Positions 54,852-64,000 of a stretch of DNA of 64,000 nucleotides are shown piece after piece. The first letter of the stretch is position 1. Each line of letters begins with the position of its first letter. A model generated the notes under the pieces. The model ran no database searches and was not told the origin of the DNA. It saw only the letters and a program-made list of their open reading frames with translations. Source of the stretch: Aurantiacibacter sp. D1-12 (lineage in GTDB: Bacteria; Pseudomonadota; Alphaproteobacteria; Sphingomonadales; Sphingomonadaceae); contig NZ_JAPJZJ010000002.1 of NCBI RefSeq assembly GCF_028858515.1, forward strand, positions 496,001 to 560,000, in the 5' to 3' direction. The position numbers were made by a program, and so were the translations under genes.

Positions 54852-55559
54852 TCAGTCCGTGCAATCGCGCGGCCAGAACAAGGCTGCAAGATCGGCCTGC
54901 TCGGGTGTGTAGCTCCCGGCGACCAGCGCCAGCCGCTCACAGGGAAGCGAGGCGCCCGCATCCAACGCCTCTGCCAGCAGCAGCGCGACATGCTGCGGAT
55001 CAGCAGCAGGAAGCGCCGAAGTGAGCGAGTTCGCCTGCCAGTGGCCCCCGGCCGCATAGCGCCGCGCCATCGCGCCGCGACCTTCGGGTGAAGCAATCAG
55101 CTCGGCGAGCAGCGCGTGGGTCTCGTCAGCCAACGCGCTGGTCGCAAGCAGGGCACTGATGCGCTGGGCGGCAATGTCATGCTGACCGCTCGATAGGGCG
55201 GCCCGGGCAGAAGCGTACTGCGCCACCGGCACCCGCCAGCCGCGCGCTGCGCTGGCTTCGAGTGCGGAAAGGGCAAGCACGCGGTCCTCCTCCAGTACCG
55301 CGGCAGTGGAAAGCAGGGCGAGATGCTCGCCCGGCAGCGGACGTCGGGCGATCAGGTTGCGGGCTTCGGTCAGCGCAACATCGCCTTGTTGCGCCTCGAT
55401 AGCGATGCGCGTGCGCTGCTCCGCCGCAAAGCCGGACAAAGCAGGAGGCACCCATGCCGCCAGCTGCGGCGCGAAACGCGAGGACCTGTCAAGCTGGGCG
55501 AAGCTTGTGAGAACAGCCACTATGCCAAGCAGGAGATAGAATGGAACTCGTGCGATCAT
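54852..55559 (-). CDS. Membrane-anchored helical-repeat protein beside O-antigen ligase
   Basis: A 235-residue protein with one N-terminal membrane segment (about residues 5-22). A helical, Ala/Leu-rich region (residues about 50-200) looks like degenerate TPR/SEL1-like repeats, for example EHLALLSTAAVLEEDRVLAL. I recognise no exact family. ATG 55559 overlaps the stop of the O-antigen ligase (ATGA), so the two are coupled, as seen with accessory proteins of Wzy-type polymerases. Confidence 0.65.
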   Translation of the reverse strand: MIARVPFYLLLGIVAVLTSFAQLDRSSRFAPQLAAWVPPALSGFAAEQRTRIAIEAQQGDVALTEARNLIARRPLPGEHLALLSTAAVLEEDRVLALSALEASAARGWRVPVAQYASARAALSSGQHDIAAQRISALLATSALADETHALLAELIASPEGRGAMARRYAAGGHWQANSLTSALPAADPQHVALLLAEALDAGASLPCERLALVAGSYTPEQADLAALFWPRDCTD

Positions 55560-56923
55560 GCCCGCTCCTCTCGCTGGCGAACGAGCATGACGGCACACAC
55601 GGCAGCGAGGCACAACAGCGTCTGGTTACGAAGCGGATAGTCGAGCAGCGATTGCGCGGCAATGGCTGCCAATGCCGCTGCTCCGCCCAGCCGCATCCAC
55701 ATGCCCTCCGCCGAACCGCGCGGTATCGCAGCGAGCAGGATCCAGATGAGCCACGCAGTGGCCATGGCGAGCGAGACAATGCCACCTTCGATGGCGATCT
55801 CCAGCCAGTCGCTATGCGCCCGGCCCGCCTTGCGCGGGGACACATGCTCGAGCGACTCGTGAAGCTGGAACACCTCGTCGAAAGTGCCCATACCGCTGCC
55901 GACAGGCCAGTATTGCCCGGCTGCATAGAGGCCATCCTCCCAGATCTCCGGACGGTCTGCCGCACCCGCCGAGGCAAAGCGCTCCACGCTCTCCGCCACG
56001 CGTCCGCCGCTGGCGTAGGAAGCGCCGAGCGCTCCAGTGGCAAGCAGAACTATGCCGACGCCCACGCCAAACAGCTTGCCCGGCCGCACCACGCCCACTC
56101 GCAGCAAGGCAACTGCACGCAGCAGCAGGATCGCGAGCGGTACGCCAAGCAGCACCATTCCCGTGCGGGACTGGGTCAAAACGACTGCGAGCGCGAAGAA
56201 CATGCCGGTAATCGCAGCAGCGAAGAGCCATTGCGCCTGCCTTGGCCGTGGAAGCGATGCCAGCAGTGTCAGTCCGACCACGAACATCAGCGCTGTCGAA
56301 TTGCGGTTTGCAAAGGTGGCATAGAAAACGTCGGCCTCGGTGCGCTCCCCATAAAGCAGGCCCAGACTGTTCGCGGTCGAGAGCTGCACCGCGCCTAGGA
56401 AAAAAGCGGCCAGGATGACGAGCAGGCCCGCCGCAACAAGCCGCAGCTTCGCCGGCCTCTGGAGGGTGCTCCCGATGACAATGATCGTAGCCGACGCCAG
56501 TGTCCCGCTAAAAGCCACCAGCGTGCGCATCGGATCAACACTTATCGGGAACCACCGGTCGCTGGCCAGCCCGGCGAGCGCAAAGCTCTCCGCAACCGGT
56601 TCGCGCCCGGGCAGCCCTTGCCAAAGGGACGCGGGAAGCGGGATGAGCTGGATCAGCGGCAGGGCAACCGATATGCTGACAAGCGCCACCAAGGCACGTG
56701 GAGCACTGCGCCAGAAAGCCAGTACCGCGTCACGGTTCACCGCCAACACAGCAAGCGCGAAGAGCTGGATAGCAAGGTTCCGCAGCCCGTAGGCAAGGCC
56801 GCCCCCACCAAGCGCGACAGCTAGAACAATCAGGATCTGGAGATGCAGAAGCGGGCCACCCAACCGCTCTGGTGAGGAGACGGTGACTACCGGATCAGCC
56901 TGACCGCCGGAAGAATCAGCCAC
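55556..56923 (-). CDS. O-antigen ligase/polymerase family membrane protein
   Basis: A 455-residue protein with about 11 membrane segments and a large periplasmic loop (about residues 300-360). LTQSRTGMVLLGVPLA (Wzy_C-type Arg), GTFDEVFQLHESLEHVSPRK and AHSDWLEIAIEGG are the family landmarks, including the periplasmic His and Asp. It ligates or polymerises polysaccharide on a lipid carrier. It overlaps the secreted 92-residue protein upstream by 8 bases and the helical-repeat protein downstream (ATGA). Substrate unknown; its position near rfbA suggests a rhamnose-containing polymer. Confidence 0.87.
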   Translation of the reverse strand: MADSSGGQADPVVTVSSPERLGGPLLHLQILIVLAVALGGGGLAYGLRNLAIQLFALAVLAVNRDAVLAFWRSAPRALVALVSISVALPLIQLIPLPASLWQGLPGREPVAESFALAGLASDRWFPISVDPMRTLVAFSGTLASATIIVIGSTLQRPAKLRLVAAGLLVILAAFFLGAVQLSTANSLGLLYGERTEADVFYATFANRNSTALMFVVGLTLLASLPRPRQAQWLFAAAITGMFFALAVVLTQSRTGMVLLGVPLAILLLRAVALLRVGVVRPGKLFGVGVGIVLLATGALGASYASGGRVAESVERFASAGAADRPEIWEDGLYAAGQYWPVGSGMGTFDEVFQLHESLEHVSPRKAGRAHSDWLEIAIEGGIVSLAMATAWLIWILLAAIPRGSAEGMWMRLGGAAALAAIAAQSLLDYPLRNQTLLCLAAVCAVMLVRQREERA

Positions 56924-57194
56924 CCGTGCCCGGCGAAGCGTTATTGCCGGGGAAACCCTCGTTATTCTCGCTCACATCACCGCCAATAGCAGCAGCAACA
57001 CCGCCCAGGATCAGCACGCCGAGCAGGATCGCCCAGATGGGAAACTCATCGTCGTCATCATCGCCTTCAATGATCTGTGAAGGCGCCATATCGAGCGAGA
57101 CGGATGCGGCTGCCGCACGGGTATTCGCCTCTGCAGCAATGGGGGATAGCACCAGCATGGTGGCTGCAGCGATCGCCAGGCTTTGCTTCAGCAT
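56916..57194 (-). CDS. Small secreted protein with C-terminal membrane span
   Basis: A 92-residue protein. A signal peptide (cleavage near AAEA), an acidic patch (IEGDDDDDEF), one membrane segment (about 52-70, WAILLGVLILGGVAAAIGG) and a Gly/Asn tail. No family recognised. It begins the polysaccharide unit that reads leftwards and lies divergent to the lasso-like locus, 224 bases from the cyclase start. Confidence 0.6.
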   Translation of the reverse strand: MLKQSLAIAAATMLVLSPIAAEANTRAAAASVSLDMAPSQIIEGDDDDDEFPIWAILLGVLILGGVAAAIGGDVSENNEGFPGNNASPGTGG

Positions 57195-57418: not shown

Positions 57419-59317
57419 ATGAGCGGAATTGCAGCGATACTGCACACAGATGGCCGCCCCGCCGGTGTGCCAATGATCGAGGCTATGACATCCGCCATGT
57501 CATACCGTGCACGCGACGGCACGGGTCGTCACCTTCGCGGCCCCGTGGCGCTGGGACACTGCGCCTTCCACACCAGCGCCGAAGACCGCGATGCAGCGCA
57601 GCCTCTTACCGGAGCGGACGGGCGCTTCGCGATTGTTCTTGATGGCTACATTGCCAATTATGCCGATCTGCGCACCGACTTGCTCGGGCGCGGAGTGGCA
57701 CTCCACAACCGCAGCGATGCGGAGCTCTTCCTCCAAGCATACATACTGTGGGGTCCCGACTGCCTCGACAGGCTGGAGGGCGAATTTGCCTGCATTATCG
57801 CCGATCATGCCGAGCAAGCACTCTTCTGCGCCTGTGACCATGCAGGGCTTCGCCAGCTGCACTATCACTGGGACGGGAGGGCCCTTCTTGCAGCGACCGA
57901 CATAGCGGGGGTGCTGGCGGCGCTTCCACAGCGCCCCGCCCCCAACCTCCCCTATCTCGCCGAGCATGTGGCGAACGAGTGGTATTCGCAAGACGAGACG
58001 CCGTGGCAAAGCATCAAGCGGCTGCCAAAAGCCCATTCACTGACTGTTGGTGCTTCGGGACCACAGCGCCGCGAGTACTGGCAGCTGCCGACCGAAGTCA
58101 CGATCCGGCACGCCAACGACGCGGAGTATGCAGAGCACTATCGCAGCGTTCTGGTCGATTGCATCCGCGGCGCTTCGCGCAGTGATGCGCCATTGGCTTG
58201 CGATGTCAGCGGCGGCCTCGATTCATCGGCGATATTCTGCATTGCGGACCGGCTGGAAAAGAGTGGCGAACTTCCCGCCCCCGCTCTGCACGGGTTCACT
58301 CTCAGGGCACCTGAAGGAACGGCAGCTGACGAGGCGATGTATGTTCGCGCCGTTGAACAGCAAACTTCGCGGGTCATTACTCCCGTCGATCTGTTCATGC
58401 CCGGCCTGGACTGGTTCGAGGGGCAGGGAGAGGCTGACCGCCGGCTCCCATTCCTTCCCAATACCGTGATGATGCGCAACATGGCAGAGACAGCTGCCAG
58501 CAAGGGGTGCCGCGTCAACCTTGTCGGGCAAGGCGGCGATCAATGGCTGGACGGGCTTCCGCACCATTTCCGCCAAGCGCTGCAAATGCGCGACTGGAAT
58601 GCACTTTGGCGGAACTGGCGCGCCGACTGGCGCGCCAAAGGTGCGATCTGGACGATCCGCGAATTTGCCAAGCAATCCGCGATGGCTCTGGCTCCCCCCG
58701 CTCTGCATGACCGGCTGAAGCGATTCCGCCAAACAATCGAGACAAGTGAGGACGATAGCGCTGCGCACATTCTCTCCGATGACATGCGCAGCGTTCTTGC
58801 TGAACGGCGCGCGGTGTTTGCAGCACGGTTCGCCGATATCCCGCCGGATGACCGGATCAAGCGCCTGAAACTGGAATCTCCGTTCCCCCTGCTCGTCTAT
58901 GACATGATGAACTTGCAGGCATCACGTTCGGGCCTCGAATACCGCCACCCCATACTTTCGCGCCGTTTCCTCTCCTTTAGCACGGCCACTCCCGAACATA
59001 TCAGGTGGCGCGGCGGGCAAACCAAATTCATCCATCGCGTGGCGATGTCAGGCGTGCTGCCGGACGAAATTGTCCGCCGTGACAGCAAGGCGCACTTCAA
59101 TCAGACATTTTACAAGCATCTGCCGAAGATGCGGCAACCCATCCTTCAAGATATTGATAAGCAACCGTTTTCCACTCTTGTTGATCCGCCAGCAGTGAAG
59201 CGGATGGTCGCTTCCCCTTGTGCCCAGCCGTTTGACCGCGCGCCCATATGGACGCTATGGGGATTGTACGCATCTGCCGCATTTCTCTCGGAGAATTCCG
59301 CGGCACAGCAAGAGTAA
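57419..59317 (+). CDS. Asparagine-synthetase-like protein, lasso cyclase (C-type) candidate
   Basis: A 632-residue protein in AsnB layout: N-terminal glutaminase-like domain (1-230) and C-terminal synthetase with the PP-loop SGGLDSSAI (near 264). The catalytic N-terminal Cys that AsnB exposes (MCGI) is Ser here (MSGIAAIL), so it should not hydrolyse glutamine. This fits lasso cyclases, which adenylate a precursor Asp/Glu side chain to close the ring. It starts at ATG 57419 with GAGGAC upstream and ends 5 bases before the precursor start. The alternative, an asparagine synthetase for polysaccharide decoration, is possible because such enzymes also occur in EPS loci. Confidence 0.75.
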   Translation: MSGIAAILHTDGRPAGVPMIEAMTSAMSYRARDGTGRHLRGPVALGHCAFHTSAEDRDAAQPLTGADGRFAIVLDGYIANYADLRTDLLGRGVALHNRSDAELFLQAYILWGPDCLDRLEGEFACIIADHAEQALFCACDHAGLRQLHYHWDGRALLAATDIAGVLAALPQRPAPNLPYLAEHVANEWYSQDETPWQSIKRLPKAHSLTVGASGPQRREYWQLPTEVTIRHANDAEYAEHYRSVLVDCIRGASRSDAPLACDVSGGLDSSAIFCIADRLEKSGELPAPALHGFTLRAPEGTAADEAMYVRAVEQQTSRVITPVDLFMPGLDWFEGQGEADRRLPFLPNTVMMRNMAETAASKGCRVNLVGQGGDQWLDGLPHHFRQALQMRDWNALWRNWRADWRAKGAIWTIREFAKQSAMALAPPALHDRLKRFRQTIETSEDDSAAHILSDDMRSVLAERRAVFAARFADIPPDDRIKRLKLESPFPLLVYDMMNLQASRSGLEYRHPILSRRFLSFSTATPEHIRWRGGQTKFIHRVAMSGVLPDEIVRRDSKAHFNQTFYKHLPKMRQPILQDIDKQPFSTLVDPPAVKRMVASPCAQPFDRAPIWTLWGLYASAAFLSENSAAQQE

Positions 59318-59322
59318 GGCCG

Positions 59323-59682
59323 ATGGAAAACAAGCGCACCGAACACAAGAAGACATATTCCCGCCCTCAGTTGACTGTCTTCGGCTCCGTCCGGAACCTG
59401 ACCGGCGGCAGCCTCGGGACCGCCGGTGATGGCGGCGTGATGAATATGCTGATGTCCGATCCGCGGGCCAAAGAAAACGTGCAGCGCGTTGGCACACACC
59501 CTGCCGGCTTCGGACTTTACCTGTTCGACTACAAGCCGCAGTTCCGAGAGCAGCACGGTTCGGATCGCCAGTTCGGCGTTATGGCGGACGAGGTTGAGGC
59601 CATTGTTCCGGCCGCAGTTTCGCGTGATGCCAGCGGCTATGCGCGCGTCGACTACGCGCAGCTTGGCATCGTGCAAGCCTGA
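59323..59682 (+). CDS. Lasso-like RiPP precursor fused to peptidase S74 chaperone domain
   Basis: A 119-residue protein with three parts. Leader 1-28: Y12-x2-P15-x-L17 and FGSVRNLTGG match the YxxPxLxxxG...TxG pattern of lasso leaders, with Thr27 at position -2. Core 29-44: GSLGTAGDGGVMNMLM, Gly1 and Asp8, suitable for an eight-residue macrolactam. Residues 45-119: short peptidase S74/ICA domain with SDPRAKENV, FDYKPQF, RQFGVMADEVE and GYARVDYAQLGI. In MYRF- and endosialidase-type S74 domains a Ser and a Lys five residues later catalyse self-cleavage just before the Ser; here these are S45 and K50, exactly at the core boundary. ATG 59323 is 5 bases after the cyclase stop. An ordinary tail-fibre fragment is the alternative, but no phage gene is near. 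Confidence 0.7.
   Translation: MENKRTEHKKTYSRPQLTVFGSVRNLTGGSLGTAGDGGVMNMLMSDPRAKENVQRVGTHPAGFGLYLFDYKPQFREQHGSDRQFGVMADEVEAIVPAAVSRDASGYARVDYAQLGIVQA
59407..59454 (+). other. Predicted 16-residue lasso core segment
   Basis: The codons for residues 29-44 of the precursor. Gly29 as position 1 is predicted from Thr27 at -2, and Asp36 falls at position 8. C-terminal end at Met44 assumes S74 self-cleavage before Ser45. A hand-calculated monoisotopic mass for the singly cyclised 16-mer is about 1491.65 Da (linear about 1509.66). Confidence 0.45.
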
Positions 59683-59729: not shown

Positions 59730-60677
59730 ATGGTTGGCATCCTTGAAGAGCATCTGGAATATCTTTCCACCACAGGGCGGCATGCGCTGTTCGCGCGGGC
59801 GCTTGGCCAGGTTGTACAACCCGGAGATGTCGTGGCCGATCTCGGCTGCGGTTTTGGCGTCCTCGGTTTCCAAAGTTTGGCGGCAGGGGCTGATCGCGTT
59901 TTCGGAATTGACCAGACTGCGGCCATCGAAATTGCCCGGGAAACTGCACGACGAAGCGGACTGGAAGACCGTTACACCTGCCTGCATTCCAGCACGTTCA
60001 AAGCCGAATTGCCCGAGAAGGCCGACGTACTGGTCTGCGATCATGTGGGATACTTCGGCATCGATTACGGTATCATCGCGATGCTGCAGGATGCGCGCCA
60101 ACGGATGCTCAAGCCGGACGGTGCAGTGGTTCCCCAGCACCTGGACCTGAACGTTGCGGCGGTTTCATCCGAAGCATGCCATGACCTCGCCACGGCATGG
60201 TCACGCGCGCCCGTGCCGGCTGAGTACGCCTGGCTCGACACCTATGCCGCGAACAGCCGCCACGAATTCGAATTTGCTCCCGACGACCTGTGCAGCGCGC
60301 CCGCTCGCATCGGCCGTGTGAGGCTGGACGAAGACAACCCCGATTTGCTCGAGTTCAATTCAGAACTGGTCATCACCCAGCCGGGCATGATGCATGGCAT
60401 CGCCGGATGGTTCGACTGCGAATTGGCCGAAGGCGTGTGGATGACAAATTCGCCGTTGGAAAAAGACGCAATCAATCGCTCGCAGGCCTTCTTCCCGCTG
60501 GCAAAGCCACTCGACTTAGAAGCCGGCAATCGCATTGGAGTCTCGATGCGTATCGATCACAAAGCGCAACTGTTCACCTGGACAATCCAGCCGGGCAACG
60601 GTGGCGAAGCGCAAACGATGAGCACGTGGAAGAGTACAATCCTTTCGGCCGCTGACCTGGCGAAGGGGGCAGAGTGA
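59730..60677 (+). CDS. PRMT-like methyltransferase in RiPP locus
   Basis: A 315-residue class I SAM-dependent methyltransferase with a PRMT-like C-terminal barrel. Motif I is VVADLGCGFG (34-43) and post-I is FGIDQT. The region homologous to the PRMT double-Glu loop (SEWMGY...E) is CDHVGYFGIDYG (103-114), where Asp replaces the first Glu and the second is missing. LKPDGAVVP follows. The C-terminal beta barrel ends with LFTWTIQ. It is therefore unlikely to methylate arginine the usual way. It sits just after the precursor and probably modifies it, though RiPP substrate choice is inference. ATG 59730 with AAGGGTGG upstream; TTG 59709 is less likely. Confidence 0.75.
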   Translation: MVGILEEHLEYLSTTGRHALFARALGQVVQPGDVVADLGCGFGVLGFQSLAAGADRVFGIDQTAAIEIARETARRSGLEDRYTCLHSSTFKAELPEKADVLVCDHVGYFGIDYGIIAMLQDARQRMLKPDGAVVPQHLDLNVAAVSSEACHDLATAWSRAPVPAEYAWLDTYAANSRHEFEFAPDDLCSAPARIGRVRLDEDNPDLLEFNSELVITQPGMMHGIAGWFDCELAEGVWMTNSPLEKDAINRSQAFFPLAKPLDLEAGNRIGVSMRIDHKAQLFTWTIQPGNGGEAQTMSTWKSTILSAADLAKGAE

Positions 60678-61543
60678 AACCGGCCTCTTCCTTCGTCCTT
60701 CTTGCGCCCGGCCCACAACGAGATCTGGCTACCGATCCTTACGACAGATGGCTTTCTCCCGACGACACGGTCATCGCGGAATTCTACCGCCACGCCGGAG
60801 ACTTTCTTTTGCGCTTTCCCGAGCAAGCCGACTTCTTCATCACCCGCGATTTGCGAGATATCCGATGCTCGCCCGCACCGGACATGGATGAGGCTTCCTT
60901 GCAGTCGCTGTTCGAGAACTCCGTCCGCCCCGTGCTCTCGAATCACGCAGGCTCGCTGAATCTGCATGGCAGCGCGGTTAATATAGAGGGTCGTGCACTG
61001 GCGGTGATGGGCTATTCACGCCGTGGCAAGAGCACGCTTGCAGGCGCGTTGGCCATGCGCGGTTTGCCCTTACTGACCGAAGACGTACTGGCGATTTCCC
61101 GGACTGAAGACCGGCACATGGTCACTCCGCAGCGCGCTTCGCTCAGGGTTTTTGAAGATAGCGCTGCATTCCTTCTCGGAAGGCCGGAAAGGCCACAGAG
61201 CGAAAGCGAAAAACGGGATATCGCAAGCGGTGCCATCCCGGTGGCGAGCGCGCCTGTGCCGCTGGGTGCAATGTGCATCCTTGGACCGGGAGAGACGGAA
61301 GAACTCTCCATCTCTCCTATGCGCCAGTCCGACATCTTGGCGGAGATCATGCAACACAGCTTTATTCTCGATGTTGAGGACAAGGCGGCGCTTCGGTCGC
61401 ATTTCGAACGGCTGGCAAGGCTGGCCGAAGCCGTCCCTTGCTACGCGCTTGACTACCCTCGCGATTTTGCCCAATTTTCCGAAACCGTCGACACAATTGC
61501 CGCGTACTTCCAGACCGAATGGGCCGCCGATGCAGGACAGTGA
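60674..61543 (+). CDS. HPr-kinase-like protein kinase (HprK-related kinase A)
   Basis: A 289-residue protein. The C-terminal half resembles the HPr kinase catalytic core: HGSAVNIEGRALAVMGY followed by Walker A GYSRRGKST (about 112-120) and LLTEDVLAI (Asp of the Walker B-like segment). The N-terminal 100 residues are specific to the subfamily and lack HPr-binding signatures. Related HprK-like kinases sit in lasso clusters (ThcoK/PadeK type), where they phosphorylate Ser of the precursor, and in the HPr-rel-A cassettes with PqqD. GTG 60674 overlaps the methyltransferase stop (GTGA). Target is unknown. Confidence 0.83.
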   Translation: MKPASSFVLLAPGPQRDLATDPYDRWLSPDDTVIAEFYRHAGDFLLRFPEQADFFITRDLRDIRCSPAPDMDEASLQSLFENSVRPVLSNHAGSLNLHGSAVNIEGRALAVMGYSRRGKSTLAGALAMRGLPLLTEDVLAISRTEDRHMVTPQRASLRVFEDSAAFLLGRPERPQSESEKRDIASGAIPVASAPVPLGAMCILGPGETEELSISPMRQSDILAEIMQHSFILDVEDKAALRSHFERLARLAEAVPCYALDYPRDFAQFSETVDTIAAYFQTEWAADAGQ

Positions 61544-61808
61544 CACGATCTCCCGCTCTGATGACGTAGTCTCCCGCGAGGTTGGTGGCGAAACGGTGCT
61601 GCTCGATCTTGGTCAGGGCACCTATTACGGGTTGAACGCTGTTGGCGGGCGTATCTGGGAGTTCCTTGAAGGCGGCGACCGCACGATTGGCGAGATTATC
61701 GCTCTGCTCACGGACGAGTTTGACGTTACTGTCGCGGATGCCGAAGCAGATCTGCGTGCTTTGCTGACCGAGCTTGAAGCGAACGCGCTAGTGAAACGCG
61801 CAGTTTAA
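61530..61808 (+). CDS. PqqD-family peptide chaperone (RRE)
   Basis: A 92-residue PqqD-like winged-helix recognition domain. It has ISRSDDVVSREVGGETVLLDL (first strands), then TYYGLNAVGGRIWEFL, the signature strand-turn-helix, and helices with EIIALLTDEFDV and LRALLTELEANALV. It resembles the standalone B1 (RiPP recognition element) of split lasso systems and the PqqD members of HPr-rel-A cassettes. It probably binds the leader YxxP motif and presents the precursor to the other enzymes. ATG 61530 overlaps the kinase by 14 bases, indicating coupled translation. It is not paired with a transglutaminase-like B2 peptidase in the window. Confidence 0.88.
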   Translation: MQDSDTISRSDDVVSREVGGETVLLDLGQGTYYGLNAVGGRIWEFLEGGDRTIGEIIALLTDEFDVTVADAEADLRALLTELEANALVKRAV

Positions 61809-63067
61809 CGCCTCCTAGTCAGGCGCTTCGACAGCGCGCCAAGCATCCGTTTTGCGTAGAGCATGATGAGAGGCCAATGCGCATTTTCAGGATACCGGTT
61901 GCGGAGCGATTGCGCGTCCGGAAACGCATGCCTCCGGATCAGCTGCAGGCGATCACTCCACCGATCAAGGCTGACAAAGTCCTTGCGAACCCGTTCTCCA
62001 AGGGTTGCATCGGTAAGATAATGCTCTGTTGCATGTGGCCCTGACGCGGCGGCCAGCTGCGCAGCGATCGACTGCGGCAATGGTGCGTCCAGCAGAGCCG
62101 CTGCTCTTTGCATTCCGGCAAGACAACGCGCGACCAACCCGCTCTTGGTAGCGGCGGCAACCAGCCTTTCCCAGTCTGCCGGAGCGAACCGCCGCATCAG
62201 CAAAGCAAGGTCCATCAGCCAGATAAGCCTCTCCCCCTCGTGCACGCGCTCTCCATCGTGATAATAGCCATGCGTTGCATGCAGTGCCTGGTTGATCAGT
62301 CCGCGCAGCATCAACAGCTCCTGCGGCACCGTCTGCGCGGTGACACAGAGGCGCGGCAGGGCGACCGGCTCGCCCCAGAAAGCAACCTCGTCGAGAACAG
62401 AGCAAAGGTACGGGCTGCCGACCAGCCGCCAGTGCAGGTCGATGGCGTGGCGGAACCCCATTCCGGTGTCGAACACCCAGTTCTGCTGTCCGAAAGATGG
62501 CGGGCCCTCCGGCTTCAACCCAAGGCCGCGTAATACCCGTTCGGCGTCTTGTTCCCGACCTGGACGAACCAGAAGGTCGCTATCCCCGCGCCGCCGCACG
62601 GCGGGCGTTTCGTATGCTAGGTAAGCGACTGCGGCCCCCTTGAGCAGTCGCGTCTCGATCCCTTCTTTCGCAAGGGCATCGAGTACACGGACCAGCATCT
62701 CCCGATGTGATGCTTCCCACAGAGCCTGCAGGCGCGCCTCTTCCCGAACAGGCTTCAACGCCGACGCAGGCCATGCCGAGAGGTCGGAGTCGCCCTCGAC
62801 GAGTGCCAGCGCGATACCGTGATATCGGATCATATCGGTAATACGCTCCGGCTCCCACGTGTCTTGCCAAGCAACGGTCTCACCACGCAGCAGCGCACTC
62901 AAGACAGCGACCCAGTCCTCCGTTTGTTGCGGACCAACCTGAGGGGGTTTTGATGTGATTTCGTTCTCCTGCACAACGCACGTCTGCACTGCCGCCCGCG
63001 CAATTGCCAGTTCCACTCCGCAACCTACTCGATTGGCAGGGGGAATAGGTTGACGCAGTATGAGCAT
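61805..63067 (-). CDS. Nucleotidyltransferase family protein (NTP_transf_5-like)
   Basis: A protein of up to about 420 residues on the opposite strand, converging on pqqD with a 4-base overlap. An N-terminal helical region (about 45-150) precedes the nucleotidyltransferase core: LLKGAAVAYLAYETP followed by RRRGDSDLLV, the Gly-x-Ser/D-x-D metal motif. HAIDLHWRL is the next strand. Family members accompany HPr-rel-A and lasso clusters as tailoring enzymes. The start is uncertain: ATG 63067 and GTG 62974 are candidates, and an AGGAG at 62966-62970 has no usable in-frame ATG, GTG or TTG after it. The homologous part begins near 62935. Confidence 0.75.
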   Translation of the reverse strand: MLILRQPIPPANRVGCGVELAIARAAVQTCVVQENEITSKPPQVGPQQTEDWVAVLSALLRGETVAWQDTWEPERITDMIRYHGIALALVEGDSDLSAWPASALKPVREEARLQALWEASHREMLVRVLDALAKEGIETRLLKGAAVAYLAYETPAVRRRGDSDLLVRPGREQDAERVLRGLGLKPEGPPSFGQQNWVFDTGMGFRHAIDLHWRLVGSPYLCSVLDEVAFWGEPVALPRLCVTAQTVPQELLMLRGLINQALHATHGYYHDGERVHEGERLIWLMDLALLMRRFAPADWERLVAAATKSGLVARCLAGMQRAAALLDAPLPQSIAAQLAAASGPHATEHYLTDATLGERVRKDFVSLDRWSDRLQLIRRHAFPDAQSLRNRYPENAHWPLIMLYAKRMLGALSKRLTRRR

Positions 63068-63129
63068 GCCGCGATGTTGCGCCGCAGACACCGCAGTTTC
63101 AGCAATAATACCGGGAAAGGTCGGAGATT

Positions 63130-64000
63130 TTGCAGCGCAAGGGAATTATCTTGGCCGGCGGATCGGGAACGCGCCTCTATCCGCTGACACGCGGCGTCTC
63201 CAAGCAATTGATGCCCGTCTATGACAAGCCGATGATCTACTATCCGCTCAGCACACTGATGCTGGCGGGTATTCGCGACATATTGATCATCACTACGCCG
63301 CAGGATCAGGAGCAATTCCATCGCACGCTTGGCGATGGCTCCGGTTTTGGCATCGCGCTGTCCTATGCTGTCCAGCCGAGCCCCGATGGATTGGCGCAGG
63401 CTTTTCACATCGGTGCCGATTTCATCGGCGGTGACCGCAGCGCTCTCGTTCTGGGGGACAACATATTCTACGGGCACGGACTCCCCGAGTTGCTTGGCAA
63501 TGCGGCCGCGCAGGGAAGCGGTGCGACTGTATTCGCTTACCGCGTCAACAATCCGGAGAGCTATGGCGTGGTTGAATTCTCCCCTGATGGCACCGCCCTT
63601 TCAATCGAAGAAAAACCGGCCGAGCCCAAATCCCGCTTTGCTGTAACCGGTCTCTATTTCTACGACGAGACCGTGGTGGACCGCGCGAAGAGCTTGCAGC
63701 CATCTGCGCGCGGAGAGCTGGAAATCACCGATCTCAACCGGAGCTATCTCGATGATGATTTGCTGCAGGTTGAGATCATGGGCCGCGGTTTCGCATGGCT
63801 CGACACCGGTACGCATAGCTCTTTGCTCGATGCCGCCAGTTATGTGCGTATCACCGAAGAGCGGCAGGGCCTGAAGATCTGCTGCCCGGAAGAGATTGCC
63901 TGGAGACAAGGGTTTATCGACGATGCCCGACTGGAGGAGATTGCCGCGCCGCTCGTGCAATCGGGGTATGGCGAGTATCTGATGGCGCTGCTGCGCGAAG
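63130..64000 (+). CDS. rfbA: Glucose-1-phosphate thymidylyltransferase (3' truncated)
   Basis: The first 290 codons of RmlA/RfbA, running off the window with no stop. [13 protein letters not shown] is the nucleotide-binding signature; [27 protein letters not shown] and [10 protein letters not shown] are typical of the family. It makes dTDP-glucose, the first step of dTDP-rhamnose synthesis. The start is TTG 63130, preceded by GGAG; an in-frame stop at 63106 rules out a longer start. Its presence implies a rhamnose-containing polysaccharide cluster to the right of the window. Confidence 0.95.

Follow-up and report, generated by a model that had tools for sequence, protein, structure and literature searches.

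A family of lasso peptide precursors with an S74 follower domain predicted to make the peptide's C-terminus

Introduction

How does a lasso peptide obtain its C-terminus when its precursor runs straight on from the core into a peptidase domain? The question is raised by a 119-aa protein encoded in the window, by which we mean the whole stretch of 64,000 nucleotides analysed here, from Aurantiacibacter sp. D1-12. A first-pass annotation made from the letters alone had described this protein as a lasso leader and core followed by a short Peptidase S74/ICA domain, and had proposed that the domain cuts itself off and thereby defines the end of the core. To our knowledge, no RiPP has been described in which a follower excises itself and so sets the C-terminus of a lasso. 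Our literature search found no link between S74 domains (also searched as tail fiber domain and endosialidase) and lasso peptides, within a partial coverage that took in few subscription papers and no bioRxiv. For RiPP together with S74, the titles among the matches listed were not about an S74 domain, and, among the matches listed, the co-mention of lasso peptide and tail fiber was, in the text available, a list of unrelated gene clusters.

Our comparison set of Peptidase S74/ICA domains consisted of the endosialidase endoNF, GA-1 gp12, the T5 fibre, MYRF and the Bdellovibrio MAT fibres. A phage S74 domain cuts only once its fibre has folded. According to the accessible parts of the respective papers, MYRF is cut between P586 and S587, with S587A and K592A blocking cleavage (PMC8326128), and a Bdellovibrio fibre is self-cleaved at the catalytic Ser (PMC10769870).

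Results

A lasso precursor with an S74 follower

The precursor and the genes of its cluster are listed below; the parts, their order, their conservation and the cluster can be read directly from the sequence.

59323-59682, plus strand: precursor A, 119 aa, composed of lasso leader, core and S74 follower (ORF translation, Pfam, NCBIfam, alignment A2)
59323-59406, plus strand: leader, residues 1-28, YxxPxL ... LTG, with Thr27 at position -2
59407-59454, plus strand: predicted core, residues 29-44, Gly1/Asp8, 16 aa by translation, GSLGTAGDGGVMNMLM
59455-59679, plus strand: S74 follower, residues 45-119, 75 aa (PF13884)
59455-59457 and 59470-59472, plus strand: codons of Ser45 and Lys50; the cut is predicted between Met44 and Ser45
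57419-59317, plus strand: C, AsnB-like lasso cyclase (PF00733, E 7e-37; best NCBIfam match the lasso cyclase model NF033535 at 292 bits, under its cut-off of 525)
59730-60677, plus strand: class I methyltransferase with a PRMT-like C-terminal part, putative tailoring enzyme (PF06325, E 1.4e-10; PF17286, E 1.1e-6, just under its cut-off)
60674-61543, plus strand: HPrK-related kinase, putative tailoring enzyme (TIGR04352, E 1.2e-11, under its cut-off)
61530-61808, plus strand: B1, PqqD-like leader-binding protein (PF05402, E 4.1e-20; lasso PqqD model NF033536, E 6e-16, under its cut-off)
61805-63091, minus strand: NTP_transf_5-family nucleotidyltransferase, of a kind that phosphorylated lasso clusters can also contain (PF14907, E 1e-30)

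In the window precursor the leader motif reads YSRPQL...NLTG, with YxxPxL spanning residues 12-17. The leader matches the NCBIfam lasso models NF033528 (24.7 bits, cut-off 33) and NF033521 (18.3 bits, cut-off 19) weakly and under their cut-offs, and each of the two models is matched at E <= 0.1 by 16 of 22 homologues. PF13884 (Peptidase_S74) matches residues 45-99 with 29.1 bits against a cut-off of 22 (E 1.3e-6, Pfam scan of the window proteins) and is found at E <= 0.01 in all 22 family members. The C-terminal residue of the precursor is Ala. The composition claimed by the first-pass annotation was borne out by the translation and the profiles: the leader with LTG and Thr at -2, the 16-residue Gly1/Asp8 core, and the C-terminal 75 residues as an S74 domain, whose Ser45 stands immediately after the putative core, with Lys50 at +5. 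The mass it had given, 1491.65 Da, agrees with our recomputed value for the predicted undecorated lasso of the 16-aa core, and the AsnB-like and PqqD-like neighbours it had named beforehand were both found. The 119-aa protein is very likely a lasso precursor.

B2 (Transglut_core3) lies outside the window cluster, on another contig (G000:C4:88971), where it is followed by an ABC exporter (the pair at L060:8888-11102). We considered whether the cluster is dead for want of B2 and rejected this, since B2 and the exporter sit elsewhere in the genome. A separate B2/exporter pair, away from the S74 precursor, likewise occurs in G103, G395 and G468 (L222, L223 and L224), partly beside other lasso-like genes. 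The locus in G468 adjoins divergent cyclase-, kinase- and B1-like genes and that in G395 a B1-like gene, so that the B2/exporter pair may also serve other clusters.

S74-fused precursors form a family

We scanned 84,980 species genomes with two patterns internal to the S74 domain, HPAGFGLY and [RN][QV]FGVMAD, and kept 17 loci, which belong to Sphingomonadales, Mesorhizobium, Burkholderiales, relatives of Competibacter and other Proteobacteria. A lasso leader and core lie upstream of the S74 domain in all 17, with the leader start out of frame in L052 and a stop at the joint in L053. Because the patterns lay in the S74 domain only, the pairing of leader and S74 goes beyond chance. Within the window's order, 6 of 396 genomes, among them the one that holds the window, carry fusion precursors, retrieved by a profile that takes in the leader, and one further fusion locus (G902) turned up among 300 genomes from the order to which a Burkholderiales member belongs. 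The other matches of these further genome searches comprised many S74 domains without a leader and some short precursors without S74. In all, 24 loci with leader, core and S74 were found in Alpha-, Beta- and Gammaproteobacteria.

The first-pass annotation had called for a genome search for YxxP leaders fused to S74 beside AsnB-like and PqqD-like genes, and the outcome agrees with its expectation: the 24 loci include C in 20 cases and B1 in 19. The kinase was seen at 20 loci, the methyltransferase at 16, B2 and the nucleotidyltransferase at 14 each and the exporter at 12, in counts (phmmer, E <= 1e-4, queried with the window proteins and, from this genome, a few B2s and a single exporter) that score diverged genes and contig ends as missing. 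B2 is present somewhere in the genome in all 23 fusion genomes searched, and the 24th, G902, has it in the cluster; of 33 genomes, two were without B2, and neither had a precursor match. L054 starts at a contig end, with the methyltransferase, kinase and nucleotidyltransferase still seen. The contig of L054 carries a second lasso-type precursor, S74-less, on the minus strand, with the core AVDNAGSADGGYGGGMVRT and its stop at reverse-strand position 1097. The precursors L050, L062 and L064 stand alone, with no match of the cluster genes within the surrounding 18-20 kb; their cores are long (23-30 aa) and rich in Gly and Met, and they may be served by enzymes encoded elsewhere in the genome. Hence, the S74-fused lasso precursor is a family and not an accident.

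Conservation of core and S74 domain

Alignment A2 contains 22 rows. L053 and L115 were omitted because of a stop at the joint of core and S74, and L052, with a probable frameshift and with its C and methyltransferase genes split too, was entered without its leader start. Thr(-2), Ser45 and Lys50 are unchanged in all 22 rows. Although acidic residues make up only 30 of 411 core residues, one is found at core position 8 in 20 rows (Asp or Glu) and at position 9 in the other two (Asp). Core residue 1 is Gly in 15/22, the others having Thr, Asn, Ala or Ser. Homologues with unconserved Ser/Lys and cores lacking Gly1/Asp8 had been named beforehand as what would speak against the proposal: Ser and Lys stood throughout, as did an acidic residue at position 8 or 9, and Gly1 did not. 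Ser is present among core residues 1-8 in 21 of the 22.

Within the S74 domain, the Asp of SDxxxK is kept in 21/22 lasso sequences and the usual SDxRLK motif has otherwise drifted (SCRGVK, SDPACK, SDRNTK), Ser and Lys staying in place. Leu precedes the Lys in 6 of 22 lasso domains (the rest have A, I, T, V, F or C) as opposed to 63 of 81 other S74 domains. All 81 other S74 domains that match from profile position 1 have this Ser and Lys too, and the profile itself favours both, so their invariance reflects a normal S74 active site and is no proof of activity here. In close pairs, which are few and near saturation, dN/dS was 0.07-0.15 for the S74 part in 8 of 10 pairs (the other two were saturated) and 0.13-0.51 for the core in 6 of 10. 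Judged by these substitution ratios, the S74 part is under purifying selection.

The end of the peptide

We compared the fused cores with those of precursors that have the same leader and no S74 domain. Up to the Ser, the cores of the S74 set measure 16-30 aa with a median of 17 (22 rows), and S74-less cores 14-24 aa with a median of 16.5 (22 sequences, several of them close kin); a rank test did not separate the two (P 0.16). The S74-less set comprised 24 precursors when found and 22 after removal of L053 and L115. Thr(-2) was part of the leader pattern used to choose it, so this residue is no test within the set. A C gene lies beside eight of the nine S74-less precursors whose surroundings were examined; L073 is the one without. 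The existence of S74-less relatives means that the follower is dispensable for lasso biosynthesis as such. We also looked for remnants of S74 behind short precursors, and among the downstream frames of all 24 only those of L053 and L115 match the domain.

In L053 a TAG replaces the Ser codon at the joint, and in L115 a TAG stands directly before the Ser codon. Behind the stop the S74 frame is open and high-scoring in both, and both loci keep C, B1, B2, the methyltransferase and the kinase. They lie on separate branches of the cyclase tree described below. The two stops could be a natural version of the predicted cut, an argument made post hoc and from two assemblies. Since known S74 domains cut before or at their Ser, core lengths without S74 are similar and two branches place a TAG at this point, we put the end of the peptide at the Met44|Ser45 joint; that the peptide ends after Met44 is highly probable.

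Likeness to MYRF and the question of a trimer

The profile of A2, compared with solved structures, matched 7dc3 (MYRF) at E 4.4e-5 and 6f45, the long tail fibre of a phage, at E 3.4e-4. In our own mapping, based on the profile alignment and on the available text of PMC8326128, the residues of the MYRF 'cutter hole' have the counterparts F68 (Y615), Y70 (Y617), F74 (F621) and M87 (I637). A structure model of the S74 part had a pLDDT of 87.6 and a pTM of 0.74; the full-length model reached a pLDDT of 70 and gave weak structural matches. The top three structural matches of the S74 model, MYRF 7dc3, 3gud and endoNF 3gw6, are all S74 domains, at low Z scores of 4.3 for MYRF (4.3-4.4 across the two models) and 2.6 for 3gud and 3gw6, the latter two about equal to unrelated kinases at 2.5. 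Foldseek returned no match at E <= 0.001 with either the full-length or the S74-part model. Perhaps the structural match is weak because the Ser/Lys segment goes to the trimer neighbour.

The lasso S74 domains, 74-80 aa long, are without the C-terminal alpha4 helix of the characterised trimeric ICA domains (endoNF, MYRF). The S74 model can be aligned with MYRF as far as residue 677, where the model stops and alpha4 is just starting. In MYRF, as described in the accessible sections of the paper, K671 stands at the top of alpha4, the trimer core is built from the three C-terminal alpha4 helices, and cleavage depends on trimerisation (PMC8326128). Such shortness is common: past the same point, the chain continues for no more than 12 residues in 53 of the 81 other S74 domains. 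Because MYRF needs the alpha4 trimer, short S74 domains would work without alpha4, trimerise otherwise, or not cut. The trimeric precursor that the first-pass annotation had considered possible is doubtful here, where the helix that forms the trimer core in the available account of MYRF (PMC8326128) is absent.

Short S74 domains were also seen in other proteins. L130-L135, L138-L142, L146 and L149 are proteins of 131-602 aa whose C-terminal part is a short S74 domain lacking the trimer helix. They come from genomes of the order of the Mesorhizobium member, and their S74 domain often follows a glycine-rich stretch.

Phage comparison and history of the fusion

S74 domains are best known from phages, and short ones occur in viral contigs and phage records, which could suggest a tail-fibre fragment fused by accident with a leader. 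No match among 10 phage records and 29 plasmid records covers 80% or more of the query, and not one of the 39 viral-contig matches starts before residue 20. All phage, plasmid and viral matches start at residue 20 or later and so exclude the YxxPxL motif (residues 12-17), contrary to a pairing of leader and S74 confined to phage tail contexts, which the first-pass annotation had said would count against its proposal. The window precursor is no phage tail protein: its S74 domain is not part of a tail or virion protein, and no phage genes lie around it. The precursor is also the only S74 match of this genome. We therefore rejected the view that the gene in its present form comes from a phage, given the missing leader in these matches, the lasso genes around and the sole genomic S74. 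With the fusion widespread beside lasso genes and a single origin open to it in the tree, an accidental phage fragment has a negligible probability.

In a tree of 62 S74 domains the 22 lasso ones grouped together (support 70/92), which is compatible with a single origin of the lasso S74 domains. A tree of 26 cyclases, which omits L050, L054, L062, L064 and L073 (no C found) and L052 and L056 (C broken), needs three changes of the S74 label, two of them forced by well-supported branches. We interpret this as an early gain followed by losses in the window's family, though gains are possible.

Discussion

We propose that the protein is a lasso precursor whose C-terminus is made by its own S74 follower, a reading to which we give a probability of roughly 0.7. 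By analogy with known families, the PqqD-like B1 would bind the YxxPxL leader, B2, encoded elsewhere with the ABC exporter, would cut after the residue that follows Thr(-2), and the AsnB-like C would join Gly1 to Asp8 around the tail. The S74 domain would, either before or after threading, cleave the bond before its own Ser45 by means of the Ser45/Lys50 dyad and leave a free C-terminus after Met44, a step modelled on S74 biochemistry and on the natural variants. Until the thread is in place, the follower may act as a steric stopper or protective tail. The kinase, the methyltransferase and the nucleotidyltransferase would decorate the peptide, again as their families suggest. Self-cleavage as the way in which the follower makes the peptide end is likely, judging from sequence and from the behaviour of other S74 domains. 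We also entertain, as rather improbable, that the follower is a maturation sensor that serves as a stopper during ring closure and cuts once the peptide is threaded; without the trimer helix this would be a new, perhaps monomeric, form of S74 catalysis.

The follower might not cut itself at all; it could be a folded domain for carrying or docking, retained because of its binding surface, with a host protease trimming the core. The missing alpha4 helix would fit such a role, as would the frequency of equally short S74 domains at the ends of other proteins and the two lineages that stop before the domain and retain the cluster. Against it stand the invariance of Ser and Lys while the residue before the Lys drifted, and a core length up to the Ser that resembles that of the S74-less relatives; we consider this explanation unlikely.

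If the domain were never removed, the mature product would be a natural conjugate of lasso and protein, with S74 remaining attached behind ring and tail and locking the thread as a stopper. Apart from S74 itself, the Pfam scan of ten window proteins turned up no protease family. The 22 cores contain no Trp or Tyr, and 9 contain Phe or His, so a folded stopper would help to lock the thread. The S74-less relatives and the two stop variants, however, have precursors whose end falls at the joint or close to it, and in a permanent conjugate the dyad would have no reason to be invariant; a conjugate is therefore quite improbable. The open, high-scoring S74 frame behind the stop in L053 and L115 could also point to the TAG as a switch, with readthrough yielding both the bare core and the fused form. 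Only two loci have it, in one assembly each, and recent nonsense mutations or assembly errors would explain it equally well, which leaves the switch very little chance. Weighed against these explanations, self-cleavage by the S74 follower remains our preferred reading.

With known S74/ICA domains, the lasso followers share PF13884, the SDxxxK motif, an aromatic pocket and a cut expected before or at the Ser. Unlike them, they have upstream a peptide core of 16-30 aa in place of a trimeric beta-helix, and they are short and lack the C-terminal trimer helix. Borosins and the BURP-domain plant peptides, as far as the available sources describe them, also combine a core and an enzyme domain in one polypeptide; their fused domain modifies the core (by N-methylation or a cross-link), whereas the S74 follower would remove itself and thereby fix the C-terminus.

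If our reading is true, a C-terminal autoprotease is built into lasso biosynthesis. It could serve as a tool for making scarless lasso C-termini and would add lasso precursors to the settings, besides fibres and MYRF, in which S74 domains are seen. Such precursors may escape genome mining or be annotated as tail fibre proteins, the name given to the S74 matches of one of our searches. The precursor is a very small S74 protein in which to study cutting and the need for a trimer, and one protein of 119 aa suffices for testing.

The tailoring genes resemble those of the phosphorylated lasso clusters described, in the text available, for paeninodin (PadeK), pseudomycoidin (PsmK/PsmN) and Bradymonas bsf (BsfK/BsfN) (PMC9266682, PMC10368454). 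These clusters likewise have an HPrK-type kinase and, in psm and bsf, a nucleotidyltransferase, and bsf also has YxxPxL and Gly1/Asp8; the available parts of the papers mention no follower domain for them, and the methyltransferase is extra here (PMC9266682, PMC10368454). PadeK acts on a C-terminal Ser, and none of our 22 cores ends in Ser; bsf is closer, as BsfK acts on Ser3 and a Ser in the first eight core residues is nearly universal here (accessible text of PMC9266682, PMC10368454). By analogy, the kinase may act on a ring Ser as BsfK does, unlike PadeK.

Further genes lie at the edges of the cluster. An O-antigen ligase-like gene is found in the window at 55556-56923, and between it and the cyclase a gene on the minus strand (56916-57194) encodes a 92-aa protein with an acidic stretch, for which Pfam and NCBIfam gave no match. 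The gene rmlA (dTDP-sugar synthesis) adjoins the lasso cluster of several relatives, some with S74 on the precursor and some without; this observation covers 61805-64000 of the window together with L043, L061, L063, L065-L069, L072 and L074.
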